From Rhodoferax sp. AJA081-3 (GTDB lineage Bacteria > Pseudomonadota > Gammaproteobacteria > Burkholderiales > Burkholderiaceae_C), in NCBI RefSeq assembly GCF_017798165.1, contig NZ_CP059068.1:4774001-4838000 (forward strand): a DNA stretch of 64,000 bases, read 5' to 3'. This document shows, one piece after another, positions 16,598 through 51,675 of this stretch (position 1 is its first letter; each line of letters starts with the position of its first letter). The translations under genes were made by a program, and so were the position numbers. Below the pieces are notes generated by a model. That model was not told the DNA's origin, did not search any database, and saw only the letters and a list, made by a program, of their open reading frames with translations.

Positions 16598-16626
16598 AGG
16601 CGTGGGGGCTTTTGTTGTTTGAGTAA

Positions 16627-16676
16627 TGCTACTGTTTTGATAGCTAAACAGGTATATTGTTCGGGGGCTAATAGCA
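16627..16676 (-). repeat. short interspersed repeat, copy A (TAGCCCCCG-N15-TAGCTA family)
   Basis: Read on the minus strand this 50-bp copy contains TAGCCCCCG, a 15-base spacer with AATATA, then TAGCTATCAAAACAGTAG. It lies in the 182-bp gap between the LRR-kinase and the Clp-N genes. Its ends TGCTA/TAGCA form a short terminal inverted repeat. Four other copies in the window have identical geometry. Confidence 0.7.
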
Positions 16677-16779
16677 CTTTTCGCTTGAATGAATTTGGGT
16701 ACCATCGCCTTTCGTCAATTCGCGCGGCTGTCTGGTGCCTTGCTTACCTGTCCACCATCTTCTTCTTAGGAGTCCCACT

Positions 16780-24948: not shown

Positions 24949-25503
24949 ATGTTCAAGAAATTTGTGAAAGCGGCCATTGCGGCCAGCATTCTGGTGGGTG
25001 GTGCGGCAAACGCGCTGTCCATTCTGGATACCGTCAGTTACAACGGCAATACGTACCAACTGTTGTCGGCTGGTTCCTGGACCGAGAGCGAGGCCTATGC
25101 CGTGTCCTTGGGTGGTCATCTGGTCACCGTCAACGATGCAGCTGAAAACTCTTTTCTGACCACCACCTGGGGCGCGCAACAACCGTTGTGGCTGGGTCTG
25201 TTCCGCACCGCCCCCCATGCGCCCACCTTCGCCTGGTCCAGTGGCCAGACCGTGAGCTACACCAACTGGGCCGCCGGTGAACCCAACGACTGCTGCTCCG
25301 GTGAAGACTACACACACACCTATGGTGATGGCACGTGGAATGACGTGGCCAATTTTGAAAGCTACCCCGGCCCCAAGCACGGTGTGGTTGAAATCACCAC
25401 CGCAGTTCCTGAGCCAGAAACCTACGCGCTGATGCTGGCCGGTTTGGGTGTGGTCGGTGGCATCGCCCGTCGGCGTACCAAGAAGGCAGCTACTGCCGCA
25501 TAA
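24949..25503 (+). CDS. PEP-CTERM protein with C-type lectin-like domain
   Basis: 184 residues. A signal peptide (residues 1-23) is followed by a C-type-lectin-like domain (about 30-150). That domain contains SWTESEAYAVSLGGHLVTV, WLGLF, SYTNWAAGEPNDC and GDGTWND, including the WND motif associated with calcium and sugar binding. The C-terminus is the sorting signal VPEPETYALMLAGLGVVGG followed by the basic RRRTKK. Such proteins are processed by exosortase and sent to the surface or extracellular matrix; no exosortase gene is in this window. A perfect hairpin terminator follows. Confidence 0.88.
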   Translation: MFKKFVKAAIAASILVGGAANALSILDTVSYNGNTYQLLSAGSWTESEAYAVSLGGHLVTVNDAAENSFLTTTWGAQQPLWLGLFRTAPHAPTFAWSSGQTVSYTNWAAGEPNDCCSGEDYTHTYGDGTWNDVANFESYPGPKHGVVEITTAVPEPETYALMLAGLGVVGGIARRRTKKAATAA

Positions 25504-25575: not shown

Positions 25576-27873
25576 TTAACGCTTGGCCGCCACCCCCGCC
25601 CCCCGCACCTCCAGCCGCACCTCATCCAGCACCTGGCCTTTGGCATCCACGATCTGCACCACGTGCCGGCCCGGCCAGGGCAGCCACTGTGCCGATGTGC
25701 CTTTGGCAAACGGCTTGCCGTCCATCAGCCAGCGCAGGTTGTTGCCCTGGGCGGCAAAACTGACGCGCTGGTGTTTGGGGGGGATGTCGGGGTCCAGCGC
25801 AATGATGGTGCCGGTGGTGGGGGCGGTGATACGGGCGGCTTGCTGGGTGGCCTCTTTGGCAGAGGGGCTTGAGCCTTTTTGGCCTCTAGCCCCCGAATAA
25901 TATGACGCATTAGCTACTGAGTTGATAGCAAATGTGGTTTGCTGCGTGCCCTGTACAAACCACTCGGCCCGTGCCGCCTCCAGCGGCGTAGCGCCGCCCG
26001 CCTTGGCGCTGGGGTCGGCAAACTGCACGGCGGCCTGCACTACACCCGGCGGCGCCTTGGGTGGGCGGCTGGGCTGCTTGGCGTGCAGGTGGTTCATCAC
26101 CGCTGCCCAGATGGGTGCTGCACCCGTGGTGCCACTGACGTCCCACATGGGCGCGCCACTGGCATTGCCCACCCACACGCCCACCGTGTAGCGTTGCGAA
26201 TAACCCATGGCCCAGTTGTCGCGCATGTCCTTGCTGGTGCCGGTTTTGACGGCGCTCCAGAAGCGGGTGGCCAGCACACTGTCGGTGCCGAAGGTGCGGG
26301 CGCGGGCGTAGGGGTCGCTCAGGATGTCGCCGACGATAAAGGCGGCGCGTGGGTCCAGCGCCTGCACGGCGGGCCTCTTGGGCACAGGGGCGACCAGTGA
26401 CGTGGCGCTGACCCGCCCACCGTTTGCCAGGGCGCGGTAGGCATTCGTCAGGTTCAGCAGCGATACCTCGGCACTGCCCAGCGCCAGGCTATAGCCGTAG
26501 TAATCACCGCTTTCCTTGAAAGGAATGCCGAGTTTGACCAACTGCTTTTGAAACGCGTCGGGCGACACCATGATCAGGGTGCGCACAGAGGGCACATTCA
26601 GCGACGCGCCCAGCGCCGTGCGGGCCGACACCCAGCCCTTGAACTGGTGATCGTAGTTTTGCGGGATGTAGAGGCCGGCCGAGGTTTGTATTTGGGTGCC
26701 CGAGTCTTCCAGCAGCGACGCGGCGGTGATGCGCCGCTCGGCAATGGCCTGGCCAAACAGAAATGGCTTGAGGGTGGAGCCGGGCTGTCGCAGTGCGGTG
26801 ACACCATCCACCTCGGCGGCATTGCTGAGCGCGCCGGACGAGCCTACCCAGGCCAGCACCTCGCCCGTGGCGTTGTCCAGCACCACCAGTGCGCCGTCTT
26901 CGACATGGCGGCCCGCCAACTCACGCAGGTGCTGCTGCAGGGTTTGTACGGCAAAACGTTGCAGCGGGGCGTGCAGGCTGGTCTTGAACGTGCGGGGGAT
27001 AGGCGCAGGGGCCGGGCGGGTGGCTCCCTGCACCAGTTGCCGCGCCACATGGGGTGCGAAACCTTCGCTGGCCGCGTAGTCGCGCCGCTGCAGCACGGCG
27101 GTGGTGAACAGGTCCAGCGCCTCGCAGTCGGCCATACCCGTGCCGCGTTTGGTGCCGGCAGGTGCCAGACTCTGCAACACCGCGCAGGCCCTTTGCACCA
27201 CCTGGGCCTGCTTGGCGTTGGGGGCGCGCACCAGCGCGGCGGCCACCGCGGCCTCGCGTGCGTCCAGCCCATGGGGCGCCTTGTCAAACAGGGTCTGGCT
27301 CATGGCATCTATGCCTACCAGCTCGCCGCGGAACGGCACCAGGTTCAGGTAAGCCTCCAGGATCTGGTCCTTGCGCCAGCTGCGCTCCAGCACGCTGGCC
27401 GACACCGTCTGGCCAATCTTCTGCACCACGCTGCGCCCACCGGCATTGCGCTTCAAATCCTCGTCCAGCAAGCCGGCCAGCTGCATGGTGATGGTGGATG
27501 CACCGCGTGTTTTGGTGTTCCACAGGTTGGCCCAGGCGGCGCTGGTGGCGGCCTGCCAGTCGACACCGCTGTGTTCGTAAAAACGTTTGTCTTCCGACAA
27601 CACCAGCGCCGTGCGCAGCGCGGGTGATATGTCGGCCAGCGCCACCCATTGGCCGCGGCGCACCGTGGCATCGATGCGCAGGCGGTGCAGCACTTCGCCA
27701 TTGCGGTCCAGCACCAGAGTGTCCGATGGCTGGTAGCTGGAACGTGTTTGGTTAAATGTGGCTGTAGACCCCGTTGAATGGACGTGTATAGCTACTAACA
27801 ATATAGCAAATACCAGCCGAACACCGATGGGGCGATTGGCAAGGTAAGGGCGGTGGGTGTGCGGGGTTGGCAT
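25576..27873 (-). CDS. pbpC: penicillin-binding protein 1C (glycosyltransferase/transpeptidase)
   Basis: 765 residues from the ATG at 27873, close to the 770 of E. coli PbpC. A short hydrophobic anchor (about 18-30) is followed by the GT51 glycosyltransferase (Glu94 in SEDKRFYEH; RGASTITMQLAG). The penicillin-binding transpeptidase has Ser366 and Lys369 in GSTLKP, an SLN motif (GASLNVPS) and KTGTS. A C-terminal BiPBP_C-type domain ends the protein. It polymerises and cross-links peptidoglycan in the periplasm. The alpha-2-macroglobulin partner, adjacent in E. coli, is 14 kb away on the same strand. Two copies of the interspersed repeat lie within the coding sequence, encoding residues 22-38 (anchor) and 648-665 (linker). 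Confidence 0.92.
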   Translation of the reverse strand: MPTPHTHRPYLANRPIGVRLVFAILLVAIHVHSTGSTATFNQTRSSYQPSDTLVLDRNGEVLHRLRIDATVRRGQWVALADISPALRTALVLSEDKRFYEHSGVDWQAATSAAWANLWNTKTRGASTITMQLAGLLDEDLKRNAGGRSVVQKIGQTVSASVLERSWRKDQILEAYLNLVPFRGELVGIDAMSQTLFDKAPHGLDAREAAVAAALVRAPNAKQAQVVQRACAVLQSLAPAGTKRGTGMADCEALDLFTTAVLQRRDYAASEGFAPHVARQLVQGATRPAPAPIPRTFKTSLHAPLQRFAVQTLQQHLRELAGRHVEDGALVVLDNATGEVLAWVGSSGALSNAAEVDGVTALRQPGSTLKPFLFGQAIAERRITAASLLEDSGTQIQTSAGLYIPQNYDHQFKGWVSARTALGASLNVPSVRTLIMVSPDAFQKQLVKLGIPFKESGDYYGYSLALGSAEVSLLNLTNAYRALANGGRVSATSLVAPVPKRPAVQALDPRAAFIVGDILSDPYARARTFGTDSVLATRFWSAVKTGTSKDMRDNWAMGYSQRYTVGVWVGNASGAPMWDVSGTTGAAPIWAAVMNHLHAKQPSRPPKAPPGVVQAAVQFADPSAKAGGATPLEAARAEWFVQGTQQTTFAINSVANASYYSGARGQKGSSPSAKEATQQAARITAPTTGTIIALDPDIPPKHQRVSFAAQGNNLRWLMDGKPFAKGTSAQWLPWPGRHVVQIVDAKGQVLDEVRLEVRGAGVAAKR
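25881..25930 (+). repeat. short interspersed repeat, copy B, inside pbpC
   Basis: TAGCCCCCG, a 15-base spacer with AATATG, then TAGCTACTGAGTTGATAGCA. It lies within pbpC and, read in the gene's frame, encodes FAINSVANASYYSGARG in the linker before the C-terminal domain. Confidence 0.7.
27760..27808 (+). repeat. short interspersed repeat, copy C, inside pbpC 5' end
   Basis: The most diverged copy (TAGACCCCG, 15 bases, TAGCTACTAACAATATAGCA). Read in the pbpC frame it encodes FAILLVAIHVHSTGSTA, which makes up most of the hydrophobic membrane anchor. It uses the same orientation and reading frame as copy B. Confidence 0.65.
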
Positions 27874-28024
27874 GGTGCGGTGCCAGAGAATAGCGTGATT
27901 CCGCAGCCCGTTCACCGGCGTGTGTTGGGGCCGCAGCCCCTATCTTCTCGACAGCCTACAATTTTGGGCTCAACAGGTATATACCCACGATGGCTTTACC
28001 CAAAAGCCGCAGGAGGAGTCACCC

Positions 28025-29230
28025 ATGCAACACCCCACACTTTCCGCTACCAACCGAAACCCCGCACGGCGCAAGCTGGTCTGGCTGGCCGTGACCGCCT
28101 TGGTTGTTGTGGGTGGCACAGCAGCTTTTTTTGTCTCCAAGAATTCCGCAGCCCGTTCGGCCGATGCGGCCAAAAAAAATGCACCCGCCGTCACGCTGGA
28201 GTTCACCCCGGCTGACATTGCCAAGGTCGCCTTGCAGCCTCTGGTGCGCACCAGCAGTGTGTCGGGCACGCTGACACCCGTTACCCAGGCCGTGGTAAAA
28301 GCCACCGTGGCCGGTGAAGTGCGCAAAGTGCTGGTGCGCGAAGGCATGAATGTTAAACAGGGCGATGTGCTGGCCGAGCTGGACACCACCGACCTGCGCA
28401 CCCGGCTGGATGCGGCCCAGGCCGATCAGGCCGAGCGGCGCGCCAAGCTGGCCATTGCCGAGCGCAACCGCGACACCAACCAGGCCCTGCTGAAGCAGAA
28501 CTTCATCTCGCAAAGCGCCTTTGACCAACTGCTCAGCACCTACCAGGGTAGCGAGGCCGCCGTGCGCTGGAGCGATGCCCAGGTGCAGCTGGCCAAGAAG
28601 GCGATGGACGACGCCGTGGTGCGCGCCCCCATCAGCGGCACGGTGTCCAAACGCATGGTCAATGGGGGCGAGCGGGTGTTGCCCGACGCCGCCTTGGTGG
28701 CGATTGTGGATTTGTCACGCCTGGAGCTGGAGGCCTCTGTGCCCGCATCCGACATCGCCAGCATTGCGCTGGGCCAGGCCGTGCGTTTTACCGTGGACGG
28801 TTTTGGCGACCGCACGTTTGACGGCAAGGTGGAGCGCATCAACCCCGTGGCGGATGCCGGCTCGCGCGCCATCAAGCTCTTTGTGGCCGTGCCCAATACC
28901 AGCGGTTTGCTCAAGGGCGGCATGTTTGCCCAGGGGCAGATCACGCTGTCGCAATCCAAACCCGTGCCCGTGGTCCCCGCTACCGCGCTGTTTGAAGAGG
29001 CCGGACAAAATTATGTGTTCACTGTGGAGGCCGGCAAGATCGCCAAGAAGGCCGTGGGCCTGGGTGCGCGAGACGAGGTAAATGGCCTGGTCGAAGTGAA
29101 CAGCGGCCTGGCCCAGGGGGCGGATGTGGTCCGCGTGCGTATGGGCAGTCTGAAGGTGGGCGCCCCGGCCGTGGTGCGTGCCAATGCCGCACCGGCCGCA
29201 GTGCCCGCCAGCGCAGCCAAGCCCGCCTGA
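28025..29230 (+). CDS. RND efflux periplasmic adaptor (HlyD/MFP family)
   Basis: 401 residues from the ATG at 28025, preceded by the strong ribosome-binding site AGGAGGAG. An N-terminal membrane anchor (about 17-37) leads into barrel-sandwich, helical-hairpin and beta-barrel domains of a membrane fusion protein; GEVRKVLVREGMNVKQGDVLAEL is the lipoyl-type half and ISGTVSKRMVNGGERV the second half. It connects an inner-membrane RND pump with an outer-membrane channel in drug or solvent efflux. The pump gene follows by 16 bp. It diverges from pbpC across about 150 bp. Confidence 0.9.
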   Translation: MQHPTLSATNRNPARRKLVWLAVTALVVVGGTAAFFVSKNSAARSADAAKKNAPAVTLEFTPADIAKVALQPLVRTSSVSGTLTPVTQAVVKATVAGEVRKVLVREGMNVKQGDVLAELDTTDLRTRLDAAQADQAERRAKLAIAERNRDTNQALLKQNFISQSAFDQLLSTYQGSEAAVRWSDAQVQLAKKAMDDAVVRAPISGTVSKRMVNGGERVLPDAALVAIVDLSRLELEASVPASDIASIALGQAVRFTVDGFGDRTFDGKVERINPVADAGSRAIKLFVAVPNTSGLLKGGMFAQGQITLSQSKPVPVVPATALFEEAGQNYVFTVEAGKIAKKAVGLGARDEVNGLVEVNSGLAQGADVVRVRMGSLKVGAPAVVRANAAPAAVPASAAKPA

Positions 29231-29246
29231 GTAGAGGGAACACCTT

Positions 29247-32200
29247 ATGTGGATCACCAAAACCAGTATCAACCAGCCCGTCTTCGCCACCATGGTCATG
29301 CTGGCCCTGATGGTGCTGGGCGTTATCTCCTACAGCCGCCTGGGCGTGGAGCAGATGCCCGACATCCAGGTGCCCGGCATCTGGATGCAGGTGCGTTACC
29401 CCGGCGCATCGCCCGAACAGGTAGAGGCCGACCTGGTCAAGCCGCTGGAAGAGGCGGTCAACACCGTGAACGGCGTGCGCAATATCTTCAGCAACTCGCT
29501 GGAAGGCCGCGCCGAAATCTGGACCGAATTCGCGCTGTCCACCGACATGACCAAGGCCGTGCAGGACATGCGCGACAAGGTGGCGCAGATTCGACCCATG
29601 TTTCCGCGGGATGCCAAAGACCCGCTGATCGTGCGTGGCCAGTTTGACAATGCCGAGCCCACGGCCACCTTTGGCGTGTTGTCCAATACGCGCAGCATGC
29701 GCGAGTTGTCCACCTTTGCCGACCAGCAAATTGTCAAGCGCTTGCAGGGTGTGTCTGGTGTGGGCCAGGTGACGATGGGCGGCGCGGTGCAGCGCCAGGT
29801 GTCCATCTCGCTCAAGCCCCAGCAGATGCTGGCCTACCAGATTGGTGTGGACGAAATTGTTACTGCCGTCCGCCAGATCAACCAGGACATGCCGGCCGGT
29901 TCGCTGCGTGCCACCGAGCAGGAGCAGCTGGTGCGGGTAGAGGGCAAGCTCAAGAGTGTGGACGCCTTTCGCCACATCATCGTGGCGCGGCGCAACGGCA
30001 CAGCGGTCACGCTGGACCAGCTGGCCACCATCAAGGACGGTGAACGAGAGCTGCAGTCCATTGGCCGCATCAACGGCCAGCCCGCGCTGACCCTGAGCGT
30101 GTTCAAAACGCAGGATGCGAATCTGGTGGTGGTGGGTGACGACGTGGCCAAGGCGGTGGAGAACCTGCGCAAGCAGCTGCCGCCCGATGTGGAGATACGC
30201 CCCATCTCCGAGAACGCAAGTTACGTCAAGAAGTCACTGGCTAGCGTCAAAAGCACCATTGTGGAAGGCGGCCTGCTGACCATCCTGATCGTGTTTTTGT
30301 TCCTGCACTCGTGGCGCAGCACCATCATCACCGGCATCACACTGCCGATCTCGGTGGTGTCCACCTTTATCGCCATGTATGCCTTTGGCTTCACCATCAA
30401 CGCGGTGACGCTGATGGCCTTGTCGCTGTGTATCGGCCTGCTGATTGACGACGCGATTGTGGTGCGCGAAAACATCGTGCGCCACGTGGGCATGGGCAAG
30501 GACCATGTGACTGCGGCCCGCGACGGTACCCAAGAGATTGGCCTGGCCGTGCTGGCTACCACGCTGGCCATCTGCGCGGTGTTTATCCCCGTGGCCTTCA
30601 TGACCGGCATCATCGGCAAGATCTTTTTTCAGTTTGGCATTACCGTCACCGTGGCGGTGCTGGTGTCGCTGTTTGTCAGCTTCACGCTGGACCCGATGCT
30701 GTCATCGGTGTGGAAAGACCCGGTGGAGTCGCGCTTCAGCTGGGCACCCTGGTTGGGCCGTTTGATGGAGCGGGTGGAGCACCGGGTGGATTGGCTACAC
30801 GTCGTCTACGGGCGCCTGCTGGAGCGCACGCTGGTGCGCCGCAAGACCACGCTGGCCGTGGCGGCCGCCATTTTTGCGGCCAGCCTGGGACTGGTGCCGC
30901 TGGTGGGTGGTGAATTCATGCCCAAGACCGACCAGGGTGTGTTCGCCCTTAAGATCAAGACGCCGGTGGGCACCAGCCTGCTCTATACCGACAACAAGGT
31001 GCGCCAGGTGGAGCAGGCCATCAAGGAGTTCCCTGAGATCGAGCTGGTCAGCACCACGGTGGGTAACAACAACCGCAACGAGGCCGAGTTGCTGATCAAG
31101 CTGGTAGACAAACGCACTACCGTGCGGCGCAGCCAGAAAGAGGTAGAGACCGCGGTACGGGAGCGTCTGAAAAGCATTCCCGGCATAGAACCTTCGCTGG
31201 GCTTTGACAAGCCCATCTGGATCAACCTGATCGGCCCTGCCTCTGCGGAGCTGCCCAAGCTGCTGGACGATGTCATGGGCCAGATACGTGCGGTGCCGGG
31301 CATTGTGGACCTGGAGCACAGCCTGCAGGCCGCCAACCCTGCGGTCATCATCAAGGTCAACCAGGCGGCGGCCAGTGACCTGGGTCTGTCGCTGGAGCGT
31401 GTGGGCAGTGCGCTGCGCCCCTTTGTCAATGGCGACCAGGTCAGCAACTGGCTGGCGCCCGATGGCCAGAACTACGAGGTGAATGTGCAACTGCCCCCAT
31501 CGGGCCGGCAAAAGCTTTCAGATCTGGGCGACTTGTACATCTCCACCAGCCGGGTGGATGCCAACGGCACACCCATCATGGTGCCGCTGCGCCAGGTGGT
31601 GGAATTCATCCCATCAACCAGCCCGCAGGTCATCAAACGCCAGAACCTGGAGCGCCGCGTGGGCATCTACGCGAATGTGGAAGGTCGCCCCACAGGCGAC
31701 GCGGCTAAGGAGGTGAAGAAGGTGGTGCAGGCCATCAACCTGCCCCAAGGCTACCGGTTTGACATCAAGGGCGAGGCCGAGCAGAACGACGAGGCCGGCG
31801 CCGCCGCCATGGTGGCCATGGTGCTGGCGGTGATCTTCATCTACTTCATCCTGGCGTCACAATTTGCCAGCTTCTTGCAGCCCATCGCCATCATGGCCTC
31901 GCTGCCGTTCACACTGGTGGGTGTGATGGCGGCGTTGATATTGACGGGCTCCACGTTGAACCTGTTCTCCATCATCGGCTTCATCATGCTGATGGGCCTG
32001 GTGGTGAAGAACGCGATTTTGCTTGTGGACTTTGCCAACCAGTCGCAGCGTGAGGGCCTCAACCAGCATGACGCCGTGTTGCGTGCCGGCCAGGTGCGGC
32101 TGCGGCCCATCATCATGACCACGCTGGCCATGATTTTTGGCATGTTGCCCATGGCCATTGGCTGGGGGGAGGGCAGTGAGGCTCAGGCGCCAATGGGCCG

Positions 32201-32354
32201 CGCGGTCATTGGCGGGCTGATCACCAGCACCCTGCTGACGCTGGTCGTGGTGCCGGTGTTGTATACCTACCTGGACAACCTGCCACGCTGGTTCAAACGC
32301 CGGTTTGGGGCGCAAAAAACGGGCGTGGAGCCTGCGGCAGCGCCCCTGGCATAG
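29247..32354 (+). CDS. RND efflux pump inner-membrane subunit (HAE1/AcrB family)
   Basis: 1035 residues, usual for AcrB/MdtB-type pumps. The first helix (PVFATMVMLALMVLGVISY) is followed by the porter domain, then helices 2-6, including the proton-relay aspartates in LLIDDAIVVREN (TM4). A second periplasmic domain and helices 8-12 (LVVKNAILLVDFANQ) follow. It uses the proton gradient to expel drugs or toxic compounds with the adaptor encoded just upstream. No outer-membrane factor (TolC/OprM type) is encoded here, so the system probably borrows one from elsewhere. No linked regulator is seen. Confidence 0.93.
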   Translation: MWITKTSINQPVFATMVMLALMVLGVISYSRLGVEQMPDIQVPGIWMQVRYPGASPEQVEADLVKPLEEAVNTVNGVRNIFSNSLEGRAEIWTEFALSTDMTKAVQDMRDKVAQIRPMFPRDAKDPLIVRGQFDNAEPTATFGVLSNTRSMRELSTFADQQIVKRLQGVSGVGQVTMGGAVQRQVSISLKPQQMLAYQIGVDEIVTAVRQINQDMPAGSLRATEQEQLVRVEGKLKSVDAFRHIIVARRNGTAVTLDQLATIKDGERELQSIGRINGQPALTLSVFKTQDANLVVVGDDVAKAVENLRKQLPPDVEIRPISENASYVKKSLASVKSTIVEGGLLTILIVFLFLHSWRSTIITGITLPISVVSTFIAMYAFGFTINAVTLMALSLCIGLLIDDAIVVRENIVRHVGMGKDHVTAARDGTQEIGLAVLATTLAICAVFIPVAFMTGIIGKIFFQFGITVTVAVLVSLFVSFTLDPMLSSVWKDPVESRFSWAPWLGRLMERVEHRVDWLHVVYGRLLERTLVRRKTTLAVAAAIFAASLGLVPLVGGEFMPKTDQGVFALKIKTPVGTSLLYTDNKVRQVEQAIKEFPEIELVSTTVGNNNRNEAELLIKLVDKRTTVRRSQKEVETAVRERLKSIPGIEPSLGFDKPIWINLIGPASAELPKLLDDVMGQIRAVPGIVDLEHSLQAANPAVIIKVNQAAASDLGLSLERVGSALRPFVNGDQVSNWLAPDGQNYEVNVQLPPSGRQKLSDLGDLYISTSRVDANGTPIMVPLRQVVEFIPSTSPQVIKRQNLERRVGIYANVEGRPTGDAAKEVKKVVQAINLPQGYRFDIKGEAEQNDEAGAAAMVAMVLAVIFIYFILASQFASFLQPIAIMASLPFTLVGVMAALILTGSTLNLFSIIGFIMLMGLVVKNAILLVDFANQSQREGLNQHDAVLRAGQVRLRPIIMTTLAMIFGMLPMAIGWGEGSEAQAPMGRAVIGGLITSTLLTLVVVPVLYTYLDNLPRWFKRRFGAQKTGVEPAAAPLA

Positions 32355-32397
32355 GGTTGGTACGGGCCGTGCTTGCCCGGTACAAACCACTACGAAT

Positions 32398-32418
32398 GGG
32401 CGCGCGAATCGCGCGCCC
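32398..32418. terminator. GC-rich hairpin after the RND operon
   Basis: GGGCGCGCG-AAT-CGCGCGCCC is a perfect 9-bp inverted repeat in the 84-base gap between the RND pump gene and yejA. No U-run follows, so it may be a Rho-independent terminator of weak type or an mRNA-stabilising hairpin. Confidence 0.5.
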
Positions 32419-32438
32419 TATGCACTACCATACGCGCC

Positions 32439-34382
32439 ATGCTAAATATCCCCACTCGTATCGGGTCGGGCTTTGTCGGTGTTTGCCTTTCTCTCACAAT
32501 GAGTCTGGCCCTGGGCGCTACCCCTGCCTTTGCCGCATCCGCAGCCCCGGTTTCATCCAAACCGCCTCTGATAAAAGCGCCAGTAGCACCTATTCAAACG
32601 GGTGTCTGGACACACGCCATATCGGCCTATGTGCCGCCCAAGTACCCGGCCGACTTCAAACACTTTGAGTACGTCAAACCGGACGCACCCAAGGGCGGCA
32701 CGCTGAACCTGAAACAGCCGGACCGGCGCACCAGCTTCGACAAGTTCAATCCGTTCACTACTCGGGGTAACGCACCGGCCGCGATGAAGATATTCGTATT
32801 CGAGTCGCTGGCCATCCGGTCCATGGACGAACCTTTGGCGATGTATGGCCTGCTGGCCGAATCGTTTTTTGTCGCGCCCGACCTGTCATCCATATCGTTT
32901 CGCATAAACCCCAAAGCGAGGTTTAGTAACGGCGATGCGGTCACTCCCAAGGACGTTGTCTACTCGTTGGAGCGGCTCAAGAGCAAGGAAGCAGGGCCCG
33001 ACACCCAGGCCGAAGTAGCGGACCTGGAACGCGCTGTAGTGGTGGATGAACGCACGGTGCGTATTGACCTGTCGGCCAAGTCTGTGAACGCGGTTTTTGC
33101 CGCGGGAAGCATGTGGGTTTTTTCGCACAAATGGGGTGCCGGCAAGAAGTTTGACGAGGTGGTGACCGATGAGCCGATCGCTACCGGCGCCTATGTCATC
33201 GATACCTATGAAATGCCCAGCCGTATCGTTTTTAAACGTACCACAGACTATTGGGGCAAAGACCTTCCCTCGCGCAGCGGCCACTTCAACTTTGACCGGG
33301 TGCGTTACCGCATGTACAGCGACCATGCGGTAGCTTGGGAGGCCTTCAAAGCGGGTGAGTTTGATATCTTCAAGGACTATCGTGCTAGTTCCTGGGTGCG
33401 CAAACATAAAGGCCCCAAGTGGGACAACGGCACCCTGATCAAAAAAGCATTTAAGACTGAGACTGGTCAGGGCTTGCAGTCCTTGAACCTGAACACGCGC
33501 CGCCCCCTGTTTCAAGACATTCGGGTGCGCGAGGCGCTTATGCTGGCATGGGACTTTGACCGATACAACCAGTACGGCACGTTTACCCACAGCTACAGCG
33601 TTTTCAACAACTCCCAATTTGCCGCCACCGGCACGCCGTCTGCTGAGGAGCTGGCGCTGCTGGAGCCTTTCCGTGCCGAGTTACCACCCCGAGTCTTTGG
33701 TCCTGCATTTGTGCCGCCGGATAACCTAACTAGTCCCAATGCTTTGCGGGAGCACCTGCGCAAGGCACGGGACCTGTTGGCGCAAGCGGGATGGAAAGTT
33801 GCCACCGACGGCAAATTACGCAATGCCAAAGGTGAGGCGTTTGAATTCGAGTACATGTCGTCTAACCTGCCCGGCACTTTGATTGACTACCAGCGCAACC
33901 TGGAAAAACTGGGCATCAGCATGAAAGAGCGCATCGTCGACTTTGCCTTGTTCCGCCGACGGTTGGAGCAATATGACTTTGATCTCATCATCATTGTGGA
34001 GCCCGACTTCACTCTTCCCAACGCTGCGGAATTGGCTTCGCTCTATGGCAGCAAGTCGGCAGATGAACCTGGAAACAACAACGCCCGTGGTGTGAAGAGC
34101 CGTGCCGTGGATGCATTGACCGAGCGTATAGGCGCGGCGACCAATCTGGACGAACTACGCACTGCCACGCGGGCCTTTGACCGGGTCGTGATGTGGAATT
34201 TTTGGCAAGTGCCACAGATATTCGTGGCCGAAGAGCAAATCTCGTACCGCAACCGCTTTGGCATGCCCAAGACGCAGGCCAAGGTTTTTTCTGCAGACAA
34301 TTTCCTCGAAGCCAGTACACCTCCATGGCCCCTGTGGACCTGGTGGAACCAAGAACCCGGCGACGCCGCACCGCGGAAGTAA
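32439..34382 (+). CDS. yejA: peptide/microcin C ABC importer, periplasmic binding protein YejA
   Basis: 647 residues from the ATG at 32439, which starts a signal peptide (residues about 1-33, ending AFAASA); the frame extends upstream without homology. The large family-5 binding fold is typical of YejA: HFEYVKPDAPKGGTLNLK, then FDKFNPFTTRGN and the FESLAIRSMDEP segment. It binds oligopeptides, including microcin C in E. coli, and delivers them to YejBEF. It is the first gene of yejABEF, with six bases before yejB. Confidence 0.93.
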   Translation: MLNIPTRIGSGFVGVCLSLTMSLALGATPAFAASAAPVSSKPPLIKAPVAPIQTGVWTHAISAYVPPKYPADFKHFEYVKPDAPKGGTLNLKQPDRRTSFDKFNPFTTRGNAPAAMKIFVFESLAIRSMDEPLAMYGLLAESFFVAPDLSSISFRINPKARFSNGDAVTPKDVVYSLERLKSKEAGPDTQAEVADLERAVVVDERTVRIDLSAKSVNAVFAAGSMWVFSHKWGAGKKFDEVVTDEPIATGAYVIDTYEMPSRIVFKRTTDYWGKDLPSRSGHFNFDRVRYRMYSDHAVAWEAFKAGEFDIFKDYRASSWVRKHKGPKWDNGTLIKKAFKTETGQGLQSLNLNTRRPLFQDIRVREALMLAWDFDRYNQYGTFTHSYSVFNNSQFAATGTPSAEELALLEPFRAELPPRVFGPAFVPPDNLTSPNALREHLRKARDLLAQAGWKVATDGKLRNAKGEAFEFEYMSSNLPGTLIDYQRNLEKLGISMKERIVDFALFRRRLEQYDFDLIIIVEPDFTLPNAAELASLYGSKSADEPGNNNARGVKSRAVDALTERIGAATNLDELRTATRAFDRVVMWNFWQVPQIFVAEEQISYRNRFGMPKTQAKVFSADNFLEASTPPWPLWTWWNQEPGDAAPRK

Positions 34383-34388
34383 CACAGC

Positions 34389-35429
34389 ATGTTTGCCTAT
34401 CTTTTTAAACGACTCCTGCTGATGGTGCCCACGCTGCTGGGTGTGCTGACAGTGACTTTTATCGTGATCCAGTTTGTACCCGGCGGGCCGGTAGAGCAAG
34501 TGATGGCCGAAGCCCGTGCTTCGCAGAAGGGCGGTGACGGTGGTGGATCCTACAAGGCTGGCCGCGATATCAGCAAGAAGCAGATGGAGGAACTGAAGAA
34601 GCTGTACGGCTTTGACAAGCCCGCACATGTGCGCTATTTCGAAATGCTCAGTAACTTTGCACGCTTCGACCTGGGTCGCAGCTTCATGCAGAACAAGGAT
34701 GTCTGGACCCTGATCAAGGACAAACTGCCGGTCTCCATTAGCCTGGGTTTGTGGGCCTTTTTGATCTCGTATCTGATATCCATTCCCATGGGCATCACCA
34801 AGGCGGTGCGCGAAGGCAGTGCATTTGACAATGTGACCACCTTGCTCGTGTTGGTAGGCTTTGCCATTCCAGGTTTTGTGCTGGGTGTGTTGCTGATCGT
34901 GTTGTTTGCCGGTGGTTCGTTCTGGGATGTATTGCCGCTGCGTGGCCTCACCTCCGACAACTGGGCCGACCTCACCTGGGGTGGCAAGATAAAAGACTAC
35001 TTCTGGCATCTGGCCATGCCACTGACCTGTCTGACCATTGGTAGTTTTGCGACCATCACCTTGCTGACCAAAAACACCTTTGTGGAAGAGATCCGCAAAC
35101 AATATGTATTGGTGGCCCGCGCCAAGGGCTTGAGCCAAGACCGCGTGCTCTACAAACATATCTTCCGCAACGCATTGATCCCGCTGGTGACCGGTTTGCC
35201 TGCGGCGTTCATTGGCGCTTTTTTTGCCGGCTCGGTGTTGATCGAAACCCTGTTTTCGTTGGATGGCCTGGGCTTGCTCGGTTATGAGGCGGTGATTCGC
35301 CGTGACTACCCCGTAGTGCTGGGCTCCCTGTATGTCTTTACCTTGCTAGGTCTGGTGGTGAAATTGGTGGCGGATATGTTGTACGTGGTTGTTGACCCAC
35401 GGGTGCAGTTTGAGGCGGTGTCACGATGA
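34389..35429 (+). CDS. yejB: ABC importer permease YejB
   Basis: 346 residues, a DppB-type permease with six hydrophobic helices. The N-terminal TM1 is followed by a periplasmic loop, and the cytoplasmic EAA motif reads RAKGLSQDRVLYKHIFRNALIPL. It forms half of the membrane channel of the Yej peptide importer. Its stop overlaps the yejE start by four bases (ATGA), implying translational coupling. Confidence 0.93.
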   Translation: MFAYLFKRLLLMVPTLLGVLTVTFIVIQFVPGGPVEQVMAEARASQKGGDGGGSYKAGRDISKKQMEELKKLYGFDKPAHVRYFEMLSNFARFDLGRSFMQNKDVWTLIKDKLPVSISLGLWAFLISYLISIPMGITKAVREGSAFDNVTTLLVLVGFAIPGFVLGVLLIVLFAGGSFWDVLPLRGLTSDNWADLTWGGKIKDYFWHLAMPLTCLTIGSFATITLLTKNTFVEEIRKQYVLVARAKGLSQDRVLYKHIFRNALIPLVTGLPAAFIGAFFAGSVLIETLFSLDGLGLLGYEAVIRRDYPVVLGSLYVFTLLGLVVKLVADMLYVVVDPRVQFEAVSR

Positions 35430-36463
35430 GCGCAGTTGCAGACGTCTCCCGCTCCCCAGGCCAGCGTGCCTGGGCCCGTTTCAAGCGCAACCGCATGGGT
35501 TATCTGTCCCTGTGGTTGTTTTCGGTGTTGCTGGTGCTGGCCACCTTTGGTGAGCTGGTCAGCAATGACAAACCCTTTGTGGCCAAGGTCAATGGCACCA
35601 CCTATTTCCCGATCCTGAACAATCCCAGTGACCAGGCATTGGATGGTGATTTCGCCACGCCAGCGGACTGGAAAGACCCGTTCATCACCGGCCTGCTGGC
35701 GCAACCGGGTAACTGGAAAGTGGGTGCCATCAACCCGCATTCGGCCATGTCGATCGACTACTTCAGCAAGAACCCCAACCCGGCGGCCCCCAATGCGGAC
35801 AACTGGCTGGGCACTGACAAGTTCGGGCGCGACATGTTGGCGCGCCTGCTGTATGGGTTTCGGGTCAGCATCTGGTTTGCAATCGCACTCACTGTGGCCG
35901 GCACGTTGATTGGTGTGGTCATGGGTGCCATCCAGGGCTACTTTGGTGGTCGTATGGATTTGACCGTGCAGCGCTTGATCGAGATTTGGGGTGCGGTGCC
36001 CGAGCTGTACTTGCTGATCATCGTGGCGTCCATTTTTGAGCCGTCTTTGTTGCTGCTCCTGATACTGTTGTCGCTCTTTGGCTGGATCGGTTTGTCGGAC
36101 TATGTGCGTGCTGAGTTTTTGCGCAACCGCAATCTGGAGTTTGTAAAGGCGGCACGTGCCTTGGGTCTGTCCAACCTGCAAATCATCCGCCGCCATGTGT
36201 TGCCCAACTCGTTGACGCCAGTCATCACCTTCCTGCCGTTTCGCATGAGTGGTGCCATCTTTGCACTGACGTCGTTGGACTTTCTGGGCCTGGGAGTGCC
36301 GTCCAGCGTGCCGTCCCTCGGTGAATTGTTAAACCAGGGCAAGGACTGGCTGGATGCCTGGTGGATCATCGTCCCCACCTTTTTGGTTCTCACCGTCTCG
36401 ATGACGCTGCTCACCTTTATCGGCGACGCCCTACGCGACGCCTTCGACACACGTAAATCATGA
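35426..36463 (+). CDS. yejE: ABC importer permease YejE
   Basis: 345 residues, a DppC-type permease. The N-terminus RMGYLSLWLFSVLLVLATFGEL is the first helix, followed by a periplasmic loop typical of YejE (VNGTTYFPIL...NWLGTDKFGRDMLARLLYG). The EAA motif reads RALGLSNLQIIRRHVLPNSLTP. Partner of YejB in the membrane channel. It overlaps yejB and yejF by four bases at each end. Confidence 0.93.
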   Translation: MSAVADVSRSPGQRAWARFKRNRMGYLSLWLFSVLLVLATFGELVSNDKPFVAKVNGTTYFPILNNPSDQALDGDFATPADWKDPFITGLLAQPGNWKVGAINPHSAMSIDYFSKNPNPAAPNADNWLGTDKFGRDMLARLLYGFRVSIWFAIALTVAGTLIGVVMGAIQGYFGGRMDLTVQRLIEIWGAVPELYLLIIVASIFEPSLLLLLILLSLFGWIGLSDYVRAEFLRNRNLEFVKAARALGLSNLQIIRRHVLPNSLTPVITFLPFRMSGAIFALTSLDFLGLGVPSSVPSLGELLNQGKDWLDAWWIIVPTFLVLTVSMTLLTFIGDALRDAFDTRKS

Positions 36464-38061
36464 TGAGTAGCCAGCCCAATCTATTGGATATCGAGCACCT
36501 GACGGTGCGCTTCGGGTCATCCACTGTTGTCAATGACGTGTCGTTCGCCATTCGCCCTGGCGAGAAGTTTGCGCTGGTCGGTGAATCCGGTTCAGGTAAG
36601 TCCATCACGGCAATGTCCATCCTGCGCCTGGCCGATGCGGCCACCACCACGGGTGCCATCCGTTTCAACGGTGCCGACTTGCTGACCAAGAGTGAACGCG
36701 AGATGCGTGCGATCCGCGGTGGCGACATCGGCATGATCTTCCAGGAGCCTATGACGGCACTGAACCCGCTGTACACCGTGGGCAACCAGATTGGAGAAGT
36801 GCTGGAGCTGCACGAAGCCATGCGCCCCAATGCCGCCCGAGCGCGCGCCATTGAGCTGCTGGCCCAGACCGGCATACCCGAGCCCGAGCGCCGCATCGAC
36901 TACTACCCGCACCAGCTCTCGGGTGGTCAGCGCCAACGCGCCATGATCGCCATGGCATTGGCCTGCCGCCCCAAACTGTTGATTTGTGATGAGCCCACCA
37001 CGGCGTTGGACGTGACCATCCAGGCCCAGATTCTGGACCTGCTGGATGCGCTGCAGCGCGACATGGGCATGGCCCTGCTGTTCATCACCCACGACCTGAA
37101 TCTGGTGCGGCGCTTCACGCACCGTGTGGGTGTGATGGAGCGCGGCAAACTGGTGGAGATTGGCGATACCGAAGCCGTTTTTGCCAACCCGCAACACGCC
37201 TACACCCAAAAGCTGATGGCCAGCCGGCCGCAGCGTGTGGTGGTCGATTTGCAGCCGGATGCGCCGGTGTTGTTGTCGGGCAAAGATGTTGCGGTCAGCT
37301 TCAGCAGCGCCGAGGGCTGGTTTGGCAAACGCCACTTCAAGGCCGTGGCGGGGGCTACGCTACAACTGCGCCGGGGCGAGACGCTGGGCATTGTGGGTGA
37401 GTCCGGCTCCGGCAAGACCACGCTGGGTATGGCCCTGTTGTCGCTGCAGCAGATTTCCGGGGGCGAAATTGCGATGGGTGGCGAACGCATAGACAACGCG
37501 GACCGCAAGGCTCTGCAGGCCATGCGCAAACGCATGCAGGTGGTGTTCCAAGACCCGTTTGCATCGCTGAGCCCGCGCATGACCGTGGGCCAGATTGTGG
37601 GTGAGGGCCTGGCGCTGCACCGCACAGACCTGGACAAGGCGGCACGCGACGCGCTGGTGCTGCAAATGTTGGACGAAGTGGGTTTGAGTGAGCGCAGCGG
37701 CGTGACCAATGCGATGCAGCGTTACCCGCATGAGTTTTCCGGTGGACAGCGCCAACGTATTTCGATTGCACGCGCCATGGTGCTGCGCCCCGAGGTGCTG
37801 GTGCTGGACGAACCCACTTCGGCGCTGGACGTGTCGGTGCAGCAGCAGGTGCTCAAGCTGCTGGCCGAGTTGCAGCAGCGGTATGGCCTGAGTTATGTGT
37901 TCATCAGCCACGACCTGGCGGTTGTGCGCGCCATGTCGCACCGGGTCATGGTGATGAAAAACGGGGGCGTGATCGAAGAGGGCGAAGCCCAGGCCCTGTT
38001 TGATGCGCCGCAGCAGCCCTACACCAAGGCTTTGCTGGCGGCAGCCCATTTGGCCGCCTAG
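36460..38061 (+). CDS. yejF: ABC importer ATP-binding protein YejF (two ATPase domains)
   Basis: 533 residues carrying two fused ABC ATPase domains. The first has Walker A GESGSGKS, signature [15 protein letters not shown] and Walker [13 protein letters not shown]. The second has [23 protein letters not shown] and [12 protein letters not shown]. Both are complete. The protein energises the YejBE channel from the cytoplasm. Translation begins at one of two adjacent ATGs (36460 or 36463) within the yejE stop. The 3' end overlaps the convergent M50-like gene by four bases. Confidence 0.93.
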
Positions 38062-38729
38062 GTTCTGGAGACGCCCCAGGCGGCAACGGCCAAAGAAAAC
38101 AGCGCCACCACACCGCCCCAGAACCAATACGGCAGCCACAGGGCCTGGGCAATGACGCTGCTGTCCGATGGCATGGCCACACCGTTGACAACGGCCTGCG
38201 CCGAGAACAGATACCCCAAGTGGTTGAACCACGACAGGCACAACGTGGCCGCGATGAAGTGCAATACAAACGCCGCAGCGGCGGGGGACAGCAACCGCGC
38301 GGCAATGCCCAGGGTGGCGGCCACGGCCAGCAAAAAAGCCACGCCAAACACATTGCGCGACCACAGCACCACCGTCACCACGATAAGGGCCGCCACGCTG
38401 GCCAGAACCGTGCGCGCAAAGCGCGGCTTGCGAGACACAAGCAAGAGGCCAATACCGGCGAAGGTAGGCCCCACCAGACCACCGGCAGCTATCAAGGCGG
38501 TGGCCAGGCGCCCCGGGTTGCCGCGCCATGCAGCCATGCCCGAGCCATCGGCATTCAGTACCAGATGGTCAAACTCTGAACCGGTCAGCATCGCCGTGAT
38601 GCCGTGCCCCATCTCGTGTGCATAGGTGGCCAGCAGCGTCAGCGGGTACAACAACTGGCGGCCATAGGGCACCTGCCAGAGCACCACAACGGCGAGGGTC
38701 GACAGGATGAGCAGGCTGCGGGATTGCAT
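38058..38729 (-). CDS. M50-family (M50B-like) membrane metallopeptidase
   Basis: 223 residues from the ATG at 38729; an upstream ATG-less extension to 38771 is possible. About six hydrophobic helices are present, and the zinc-binding HEMGH motif (YAHEMGHGITAML) sits in an early helix, as in M50B-type intramembrane or membrane-associated proteases. The second, distal metal ligand motif is not obvious to me, so activity is likely but not certain. It diverges from a DUF4384 lipoprotein gene across only 35 bp. Confidence 0.75.
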   Translation of the reverse strand: MQSRSLLILSTLAVVVLWQVPYGRQLLYPLTLLATYAHEMGHGITAMLTGSEFDHLVLNADGSGMAAWRGNPGRLATALIAAGGLVGPTFAGIGLLLVSRKPRFARTVLASVAALIVVTVVLWSRNVFGVAFLLAVAATLGIAARLLSPAAAAFVLHFIAATLCLSWFNHLGYLFSAQAVVNGVAMPSDSSVIAQALWLPYWFWGGVVALFSLAVAAWGVSRT

Positions 38730-38764
38730 GGAGGTGTTGAAAAAACCGAATGGTATCCTTTTGC

Positions 38765-39274
38765 ATGACAAAAGTTTCTACCACCGTTGCGGGCTGTGCC
38801 CTGGGTTTGGTACTGGTGTTTGGTGGCTGCGCCGTACCGTCCAAAGATGCGCCAGTAGACGCCAATTGGCTGCAGCGCATGGATGGTGTGCTGCGCAAGG
38901 CCACACCCGCGCTACAGGTGCGGGTACAGCCCGCCGCCAACCCGGTCAAACAGGGCGAGGTGCTGAAGCTGCGTGTGTTTTCGAACACCGCTGGTTTTGT
39001 CTACTTGTTGCAGCTGGACAGCGATGGCAAGGCCCTGCGTTTGGTGTTCCCCAATGCAATGGACGATGCCAACTTCATGGGCGCCGGTTACATCGATCTG
39101 CCCCGCGGCAACTGGCAACTGCCCGCCCGCGGCCCGACCGGGGTGGCCTACTTGATGGCCGTCATGTCGCCCACCCAGTTGGATCTGCCAGCGCTGCAGG
39201 CCCAACTGGCGTATGGCCGGTTTGAGTTAATGGGGACCTATGGCGCGGCCATGGTGCCGCTGCGGGGAATGTAA
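38765..39274 (+). CDS. DUF4384 lipoprotein
   Basis: 169 residues from the ATG at 38765 (an ATG at 38750 is possible). A lipoprotein signal peptide ends in LVFGGC, so Cys21 or so would be lipidated. The DUF4384 core is visible in LKLRVFSNTAGFVYLLQLDSDGKALRLVFPN...FMGAGYIDLPRGNWQL. DUF4384 domains often accompany caspase-like or kinase proteins in bacterial envelopes, but no such partner is adjacent here (caspase-fold genes are 13 kb away). Function unknown. Confidence 0.75.
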   Translation: MTKVSTTVAGCALGLVLVFGGCAVPSKDAPVDANWLQRMDGVLRKATPALQVRVQPAANPVKQGEVLKLRVFSNTAGFVYLLQLDSDGKALRLVFPNAMDDANFMGAGYIDLPRGNWQLPARGPTGVAYLMAVMSPTQLDLPALQAQLAYGRFELMGTYGAAMVPLRGM

Positions 39275-39296
39275 AACTCTGGTCGTGGTCACAAGC

Positions 39297-42103: not shown

Positions 42104-42172
42104 TGGTCTTGAAGCCTGGGTGAATCCACTGTTCGGGTTGGCTATTCTGCCAGGGTTCCTTTACGGAAAATT

Positions 42173-42221
42173 GGGCTGTAGCCCCCGTGAAATATGGTGG
42201 ATTAGCTATCAAAATAGTAGT
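42173..42221 (+). repeat. short interspersed repeat, copy D
   Basis: TAGCCCCCG, 15 bases including AATATG, then TAGCTATCAAAATAGTAG, in the 129-bp gap between the sensor-kinase start and the end of the alpha-2-macroglobulin gene. This is the copy closest to the consensus. Confidence 0.75.
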
Positions 42222-42232
42222 GAACTCATCGT

Positions 42233-50663: not shown

Positions 50664-51605
50664 ATGCAAGCTTTTTACAGTGACCAGTTCGTTTTGCCCC
50701 TGCCCGAGGGCCACCGTTTCCCCATGGCCAAGTACCGGATGCTGCGCGAGCAATTGGCTGTTCACCTGCCGGCCGTACAGTGTTTGGAGGCTCCTCGCGC
50801 CAGTGACGGCGAGTTGGCCTATGCCCACAGCCCTGGTTATGTAGAGGCCATCGCCCAGGGCACGGCCAGCCCGGCGGTGTTGCGTGAGATTGGCTTCCCC
50901 TGGAGCGAGGCCATGGCTGAACGGGCCCGACGCTCGGTAGGTGCCACCATCGCCGCCGCGCGTGTGGCGCTGGTGCAGGGTGTGTCGGCCAACCTGGCGG
51001 GCGGCACGCACCACGCCTACGCCGACAAGGGCGGTGGGTTTTGTGTCTTCAACGACGTGGCGGTGGCCAGCCGGGTGGTGCAGGCAGAGTGGGGCAGGCG
51101 CCAGCCACGTGGTGCGGAACCCCTGCGTGTGGCGGTCATTGATCTGGATGTGCACCAGGGCAATGGGACGGCACACATCTTCCAAGGCGACGACAGCGTG
51201 TTCACGCTATCCCTACACGGCGACAAGAATTTTCCGTTCCGCAAAGAGGCTAGCGATCTGGATGTGCCACTGCCTGATGGCTGTGCAGATGCGGACTACC
51301 TGGCCGCACTGGATGGTGCGCTGGCTGAGCTGGACAGACGATTTGCGCCTGGTCTGGTGATGTACCTGGCAGGGGCCGACCCGTACGAGGGCGACCGCCT
51401 GGGCCGCCTCAAGCTGAGTATGGCCGGCATGCAGGCGCGGGACCAGCGGGTGTTTGACTGGTGCGGTGCACGCAATCTGCCGGTGGTGGTGTTGATGGCG
51501 GGCGGGTATGGGGTGCGTATTGACGAGACAGTGGCGGTGCAGCTCAATACGTATCGGGTGGCGCTGGCCTACTGGAAGGGCTTCCAGCGGGATTCTTCCT
51601 TGTGA
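50664..51605 (+). CDS. histone deacetylase-superfamily protein (class II/acetylpolyamine amidohydrolase-like)
   Basis: 313 residues, the normal length of bacterial HDAC-fold enzymes. The zinc site is intact: DLDVHQGNGT supplies Asp and His and GADPYEGD supplies the second Asp. The catalytic dyad HH lies in GGTHHAYADKGGGFCVFND. The enzyme removes acyl groups from amines such as acetylpolyamines or acetyl-lysine in the cytoplasm. It is monocistronic; repeat copy E follows its stop. Confidence 0.88.
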   Translation: MQAFYSDQFVLPLPEGHRFPMAKYRMLREQLAVHLPAVQCLEAPRASDGELAYAHSPGYVEAIAQGTASPAVLREIGFPWSEAMAERARRSVGATIAAARVALVQGVSANLAGGTHHAYADKGGGFCVFNDVAVASRVVQAEWGRRQPRGAEPLRVAVIDLDVHQGNGTAHIFQGDDSVFTLSLHGDKNFPFRKEASDLDVPLPDGCADADYLAALDGALAELDRRFAPGLVMYLAGADPYEGDRLGRLKLSMAGMQARDQRVFDWCGARNLPVVVLMAGGYGVRIDETVAVQLNTYRVALAYWKGFQRDSSL

Positions 51606-51610
51606 AATAT

Positions 51611-51657
51611 GCCGCTAGCCCCCGTGGAATATGAAGTTATAGCTATAAAAAGTGTAG
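51611..51657 (+). repeat. short interspersed repeat, copy E
   Basis: TAGCCCCCG, 15 bases with AATATG, then TAGCTATAAAAAGTGTAG, in the 70-bp gap between the HDAC-like gene (+) and the caspase-fold gene (-). It begins six bases after the HDAC-like stop. Confidence 0.7.
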
Positions 51658-51675
51658 TTTTTCGCTGCTGCACCG

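Follow-up and report, generated by a model that had tools for sequence, protein, structure and literature searches.

The DNA analysed here is a 64,000-nucleotide stretch of the Rhodoferax sp. AJA081-3 genome (contig NZ_CP059068.1, positions 4,774,001 to 4,838,000), referred to below as the window. The gene in question is pbpC (25576..27873, minus strand), which encodes the 765-residue penicillin-binding protein 1C (PbpC; TIGR02073 above cut-off) and contains two copies of a TAGCCCCCG-N15-TAGCTA repeat. The initial annotation took these for a pair of domesticated jumping repeats. They are most likely a local view of a genome-wide, uptake-like signal. By analogy with known uptake sequences, we place at slightly better than even the probability that the pbpC copies are members of a genome-wide DNA signal motif spread by molecular drive from sequence-biased uptake. 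Cells would preferentially take up DNA carrying the motif, as with the uptake signal sequence (USS) of Haemophilus and the DNA uptake sequence (DUS) of Neisseria, and recombination would spread alleles that match it better. Inside conserved genes, substitutions would pull existing codons towards the motif; in pbpC, drive would recode existing anchor residues and occupy an indel-tolerant linker. Natural candidates for the recognising protein would be parts of the type IV pilus and competence machinery.

Formation of the motif in place within genes

In-gene copies were compared with their orthologs in six motif-poor congeners (four with no matches, G021 with one and G006 with three) and three motif-rich ones, not every motif-poor genome being represented at every site. 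Fourteen copies with E<5e-7 were taken, leaving out one cut by the end of a sampled stretch and weaker ones (E>5e-7). Site 0 is pbpC, which was treated apart, and site 7, at the N-terminus of a BepA-like protease, had no ortholog row, leaving 12 sites. Gaps were counted over the motif plus 10 residues on each side. At seven of the 12 sites there is no net gap relative to the motif-poor rows, with one exception (+8) among 29 rows. These sites lie in a U32 peptidase (site 3; gapless in two of two motif-poor rows), an M61 peptidase (site 4; three of three), NAD synthase (site 6; five of six, the sixth at +8), a BenE transporter (site 8; three of three), the xanthine dehydrogenase large subunit (site 9; six of six), HpnC (site 10; three of three) and LolD (site 11; six of six). 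In LolD, the residues of the motif-poor orthologs can still be recognised under the motif. Net gaps were −1, +6, +12 and +21 for the xanthine dehydrogenase small subunit (site 1) and −2 and −4 for HpnE (site 12). A uniform step of 21–22 residues, expected from an insertion of 63–66 bp, was seen at none of the sites compared.

Nine sites were scored at the DNA level against an iterated profile of the motif; four rows (sites 1 and 12) were dropped because a gap fell within it. Because the profile was trained on the window genome's own copies, the scores of that genome (42.7–59.8 bits) are inflated; those of motif-rich congeners that keep the motif (16.8–60.0 bits) are not, as these lie outside the training set. 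All 31 motif-poor DNA rows scored between −24.8 and −100.8 bits. In four motif-rich rows the motif is absent at unchanged length (site 3 in G034, site 4 in G022 and G034, and site 9 in G003), a turnover within the rich group. Gapless alignment, together with absence of the motif from motif-poor orthologs, shows that the motif was formed in place by substitution at seven of the 12 in-gene sites.

The two copies in pbpC, reported in the initial annotation as sharing orientation and frame, are real. Both are antisense to the gene. In the 69-column alignment copy B spans 25866..25934 (plus strand; pattern at 25887–25916, core TAGCCCCCG at 25887–25895; profile E=4.2e-11), and copy C spans 27744..27812 (plus strand; pattern with one mismatch at 27765–27794, core TAGACCCCG at 27765–27773; E=5.7e-8). 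The protein has Transgly (residues 60–236), Transpeptidase (327–570) and BiPBP_C (672–753) domains. Copy C encodes the N-terminal hydrophobic segment around residues 22–38, and copy B the linker immediately before BiPBP_C, around residues 648–664. The peptides start at residues 22 and 648 and are 17 residues long, which agrees with the range 22–38 given earlier and corrects the other, 648–665, to 648–664. Of the start attributed to both peptides, the 'FA' in the linker copy comes at least in part from the host protein, since F-A-M or F-A-L is frequent there in motif-poor orthologs.

A PbpC search of 61 genomes yielded 22 loci that were aligned. At the DNA level, the window genome and each of the 11 motif-rich congeners that have the gene show both motif sites at the same places, the weakest being G025 (E=0.049 and 0.19). 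At E<=5 there was no DNA match at these sites in any of three motif-poor congeners (G005, G006 and G032), nor in any of eight loci from other families of the order. Orthologs without the motif carry other residues at both sites, as the DNA search and the sequences show. Inspection by eye nevertheless reveals in the motif-poor orthologs a hydrophobic segment about equally long before the same conserved T/S-F-x-E-V; in G006 it reads FAATLLLASTHVLATP-TFNEV, 16 residues as against 17 in the window genome. The idea that a mobile repeat supplied the membrane anchor is not supported on this point. Relatives without the repeat had been expected to differ at, or be shorter in, anchor and linker: the residues do differ at both, and the linker is shorter, though unevenly, but the anchor hardly changes in length whether the motif is there or not. 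The PbpC anchor was therefore recoded in place, and neither supplied nor invented by the motif, a modest consequence for pbpC.

The linker site is probably old. It is matched at E<0.05 in 10 of 80 named loci, from Rhodoferax, Polaromonas, Simplicispira, Ottowia and unnamed Comamonadaceae, and this spread across several genera is the ground for its presumed age. In the syntenic loci read, none of the remaining copies of the window appeared at its corresponding place.

Motif family, reading frames and distribution

The search for further copies proposed in the initial annotation brought out a large family. The pattern TAGCCCCCG-N(10-20)-TAGCTA has four exact matches in the window and none in 100 shuffles. 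The genome as a whole (5.17 Mb) contains 89 exact N15 copies; with 10–20 spacer bases there are 90 places, two of them overlapping. Allowing up to three mismatches, TAGCCCCCG-N15-TAGCTA-N9-TAG occurs at 577 places (290 forward, 287 reverse), compared with five for the reversed pattern. The iterated profile found 69 copies at E<0.01 in a 464-kb sample, made up of 20 evenly spaced 20-kb stretches and the window, which extrapolates to about 770 genome-wide; the reversed sample gave no profile match at E<1. The shuffle, reversed-pattern and reversed-sample controls rule out a chance origin of the matches.

The motif spans about 61–69 bp and consists of rigid blocks (AAAT, GGCCTC-TAGCCCCCG, GCTAT and TAGCA) at fixed spacing, separated by near-random spacers, with a consensus of about AAGCCAAATTGGCCTCTAGCCCCCG-N15-TTGCTATCAATTTAATAGCAA. 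All 69 copies align without indels. Of 61 columns, 22 reach 1 bit or more, and there is little information in the spacers, the motif carrying about 50 bits in all. Among 108 copies, strong associations between columns mostly join neighbouring ones; at columns −11 to −9, AAA and TTT swap as a block, a pattern that suggests recognition of DNA shape.

Wholly intergenic copies account for 34 of the 69; 21 lie wholly in genes (14 antisense, seven sense), 13 over the 3′ end of a gene and one over a 5′ end. The motif is therefore scarcer in genes than expected, 87% of the sample being coding. Genes in the sample were called by a codon-usage script, which placed the start of pbpC too late (27714), so that copy C is counted here as intergenic. 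Copies on the plus and minus strands number 11 and 20 in one half of the genome and 20 and 18 in the other, without strong strand polarity. The excess of 3′ over 5′ ends, the presence of a copy in eight of 30 convergent spacers and a weak 3′-end pairing of GCTAT...ATAGC are what would be expected of an element acting in RNA, such as a terminator, an mRNA stabiliser or a small RNA. Against this, the consensus folds at only −0.37 kcal/mol with three pairs and no compensatory change, the named pairs do not exceed shuffles, copies lie in both orientations inside genes, and Rfam gave no match in the window at its gathering threshold. RNA structure is ruled out by these Rfam, fold and shuffle results, and we consider an RNA-level element extremely unlikely. 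Nor did the fold and shuffle tests support a hairpin or a terminal inverted repeat across the motif.

The shared reading frame of copies B and C, to which the initial annotation gave weight, is real but largely forced. Read antisense, 68 copies are free of stop codons in the pbpC frame in 49 cases and in the other two frames in 12 and five; in the sense direction, two frames are open in 34 and 32 copies and the third in three. Usually only one antisense frame is stop-free, so that a common frame is largely expected, and the pbpC frame is used by nine of the 14 antisense in-gene copies.

Presence of the motif is patchy. Counts per genome were drawn from the best 50 (genus survey) or best 150 (named genomes) scored candidates, so that high counts are lower bounds. 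Of 61 genomes of the genus, the window's included, 26 have at least 43 matches, three have 11–16 and eight have 1–3. The remaining 24 lack matches altogether, as do 40 genomes from other families. Among named genomes, Rhodoferax BLA1 has at least 148 matches, Rhodoferax U11-2br at least 139, Polaromonas A23 at least 130, Ottowia GY511 at least 115, Acidovorax temperans at least 106, Acidovorax MR-S7 at least 71 and Simplicispira at least 43. Variovorax 110B has six, Polaromonas JS666 and Limnohabitans have one each, and Delftia, Curvibacter, Ottowia thiooxydans, Variovorax OV329, Pandoraea and Burkholderia ambifaria have none. On a PbpC tree of 38 rows the rich/poor label needs six changes, a number as low being reached in none of 500 shuffles, and Limnohabitans falls within a motif-rich clade. 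The cores are also specific to genera at unchanged spacing: TAGCGCccG with AAGCGC in Acidovorax, and TAGCCCttG with GCGC in Polaromonas (consensuses from 20 of 106 and 20 of 130 matches, respectively, found with the window genome's model). Dialects and patchy presence across genera are thus both observed.

A palindromic module of the motif, TGCTAT-N7-ATAGCA, occurs at 25 places in this genome, at 0–2 in eight motif-poor Rhodoferax genomes and at five in Variovorax 110B. Its rarity speaks against a hidden dialect in the motif-poor genomes, but the test is a weak one, since motif-rich G034 also has only two. Most motif-poor Rhodoferax genomes in this search (L331–L337) have a single palindrome TGCTATCSGAYGGATAGCA, or a close variant of it, possibly one conserved site. 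On the 305-kb second replicon of G001 lies one of the 77 matches listed (of 149), as against about 5.8 expected by length.

The window's remaining copies, each recovered by pattern, profile and alignment, lie at 16623..16691 (minus strand; intergenic), 42158..42226 (plus strand; intergenic, on the 3′ end side of a gene at 42233–48223) and 51595..51663 (plus strand; overlapping the 3′ end of a gene at 50664–51605). The product of the gene adjoining pbpC (24949–25503) is a small protein in which Pfam identifies a C-type lectin domain and, at the C-terminus, a PEP-CTERM sorting motif. In G022 and G031, pbpC directly adjoins a homolog of the large 42233–48223 gene, from which about 14 kb of other genes (27920–42233) separate it here; G003 shares the window's arrangement, at least for the two genes adjoining pbpC.

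Intergenic copies and alternative explanations

An ungapped motif with a strong core and AT blocks, present in hundreds of copies on both strands, formed in place inside conserved genes, with dialects and repeated loss, is what drive from biased uptake predicts. Some of the properties looked for in an uptake sequence were found: the motif is over-represented on both strands, in and between genes, and under-represented in coding DNA, and it has accumulated in place at seven of 12 in-gene sites, though not at the intergenic sites read.

Several observations weigh against this reading. Three of the in-gene sites have shorter motif-poor rows: Mfd (site 2) by 13 residues, YgiQ (site 5) by 6–11 and a protein of no family (site 13) by 12–24; motif-rich G034 is also shorter at sites 2 and 13, by 16 and 17 residues. 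In the pbpC linker, G032, G005 and G006 are shorter by 20, 11 and 7 residues, and not by a uniform 21–22, so that the origin of this copy, in an indel-rich linker, appears ambiguous from the alignment. Between genes, the five spacers that were read are about 45–105 bp longer where they hold a copy than in orthologs without the motif, which looks like a gain of DNA. The copies themselves include two close pairs (L346/L348, 87% over 63 bp; L347/L349, 38 of 38), with dissimilar flanks, that are unlike the other pairs compared and hint at some copying; one member of each lies outside the 108-copy set described below. The motif is, moreover, several times longer than uptake motifs known. Finally, ComEC and ComP_DUS-family pilins were each found in 19 of 20 genomes, whether rich or poor in the motif; ComEC was not found in motif-rich G026. 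A link of the motif to the presence of competence genes was accordingly not found and, since these genes do not separate rich from poor genomes, uptake specificity is something that we infer. As a separate observation, G001 has a motif match (C1:1455170-1455232) inside a stretch matched as comEC (1454736–1455593).

The spacer lengths can be set out more fully. Convergent spacers have a median of 94 bp with a copy (n=13) and 10.5 bp without (n=48). Thirteen spacers were queried and five read in other genomes; L085:3726 had both flanks elsewhere but is not among the five. Several spacer ends were placed by the homologous position of a start codon and not by an actual start codon. L082:15607 measures 82 bp here, 80 and 65 in rich congeners and −1, −13 and −9 in poor ones, and L087:9845 measures 92 here, 92 and 89 in rich congeners and 9 and 39 in poor. 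L082:11594 is 75 here, −1 in a rich congener without the motif and −1, 11 and 11 in others, which are poor; L081:13635 is 102 here, −4 and 61 in rich and 0, 51 and 58 in poor congeners; and L071:1205 is 92 here and 29 in one rich congener. Intergenic copies therefore coincide with DNA added here or lost elsewhere. Drive acting on any motif-carrying DNA can accommodate longer spacers, leaving the source of the extra DNA unexplained. In motif-poor G032 and G006, the spacer orthologous to L081:13635 (L286 and L287) keeps a TTGCTAC...ATAGCA palindrome without the TAGCCCCCG core, perhaps a remnant or a different signal.

These longer spacers, the shorter pbpC linker and sites 2, 5 and 13 of motif-poor genomes, and the long stretches common to two copy pairs would all fit a small mobile or selfish repeat, similar to a miniature inverted-repeat transposable element or to the Rickettsia palindromic element (RPE), that had been inserted, domesticated in pbpC and left with spacers that have since drifted. 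Such an origin is already contradicted at the gapless in-gene sites, seven of 12 lacking an insertion, among them LolD, where the host residues remain recognisable. The relationships among copies tell against it as well. The best pair among 108 distinct copies has 54 of 70 bases in common and mean identity in a 68-copy sample is 52%; near-identical copies are absent among the 108, which give no sign of a recent copying burst. Descent in copy lineages was rejected: z exceeds 5 in 42 of 2415 column pairs, of which 27 lie within three columns, and in the 14 inspected of the 15 others mutual information reaches at most 0.22, mostly between near-invariant columns. With no supported hairpin or terminal inverted repeat and no indels in aligned copies, we judge a mobile repeat decidedly improbable.

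Selection, place by place, of a site bound by a chromosome-organising or other DNA-binding protein would account for the fixed spacing without indels, the shape signature of the AT block, the use of both strands and formation in place. By our own arithmetic, however, about 14 bits suffice to mark 770 sites, and the roughly 50 bits held are so far above that need as to be hard to reach by selection for binding alone. The motif is missing from whole sister genomes, shows no strong strand polarity between genome halves, and lies inside conserved genes without obvious order. We regard such a binding site as unlikely.

Comparison with known uptake signals

In Haemophilus influenzae, modelling indicates that biased uptake alone can build USS distributions, and the USS is scarce in constrained coding DNA and in newly acquired DNA (PMC7811141). 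The same source describes a core with AT tracts, DNA-shape effects and molecular drive, and PMC2346458 reports one favoured orientation within genes and a bias to gene ends; drive on uptake sequences is also treated in PMC1939737. The Pasteurellaceae USS resembles the present motif in its hundreds to thousands of copies in and between genes, its strong core and flanking AT tracts, its scarcity in constrained coding DNA, its favoured orientation within genes and its bias to gene ends. Its sequence is unrelated, however, and in H. influenzae a 9-bp core has short flanks, as against a multi-block motif of 61–69 bp here. Intergenic copies here are, in addition, accompanied by extra DNA. The DUS is a family-wide motif with species- or genus-level dialects around a shared core (PMC3630211), and the Rhodoferax, Polaromonas and Acidovorax forms of the motif differ at fixed spacing in the same manner. 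The DUS of Neisseriaceae is, on the other hand, about 12 bp long and read by the pilin ComP, whereas the ComP_DUS-family pilins found here occur both in genomes that have the motif and in genomes that do not.

Two repeat families from other settings also bear comparison. The RPE lies in frame inside many unrelated proteins (PMC10969869), but each element is an inserted sequence of about 150 bp that folds as a palindrome, whereas the majority of the in-gene copies compared in this genome show neither insertion nor fold. The Bordetella repeat BRE (betaproteobacterial repeat element) is reported as interspersed in Comamonadaceae, with some copies within coding sequences (PMC3110155). It is 75–91 bp long, about 69% GC, partly tandem and present in at most 29 copies per genome, and reaches its maximum in Polaromonas JS666, where the motif described here has one match. 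BRE is thus set apart by description (length, GC content, copy number and genomes), its sequence not having been compared.

A strong preference for DNA with short motifs is described for two families, Pasteurellaceae and Neisseriaceae (PMC7811141), and we found no paper linking uptake sequences with Comamonadaceae or Burkholderiales; one literature match for competence and Comamonadaceae is PMC10257627. We tentatively propose, giving it a little less than an even chance, that Comamonadaceae are a third family with signals for self-recognition in uptake. These signals would be distinguished by a longer motif, genus dialects, repeated loss, in-place rewriting of conserved proteins and a recurring antisense-encoded peptide (FAI..VA....TGA.GQ-like) in unrelated proteins, the PbpC anchor and linker included. 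If true, this would be a third, independent and patchily distributed case of an uptake signal, in bacteria of fresh water and soil. Sister species that differ in having the motif (Polaromonas A23 and JS666; Ottowia GY511 and O. thiooxydans) would then form natural pairs available for finding the receptor, and the system would test how far drive at the DNA level can rewrite proteins. Peptides common to unrelated Comamonadaceae proteins may, by the same token, stem from signals in the DNA and have nothing to do with protein function or domesticated transposons.

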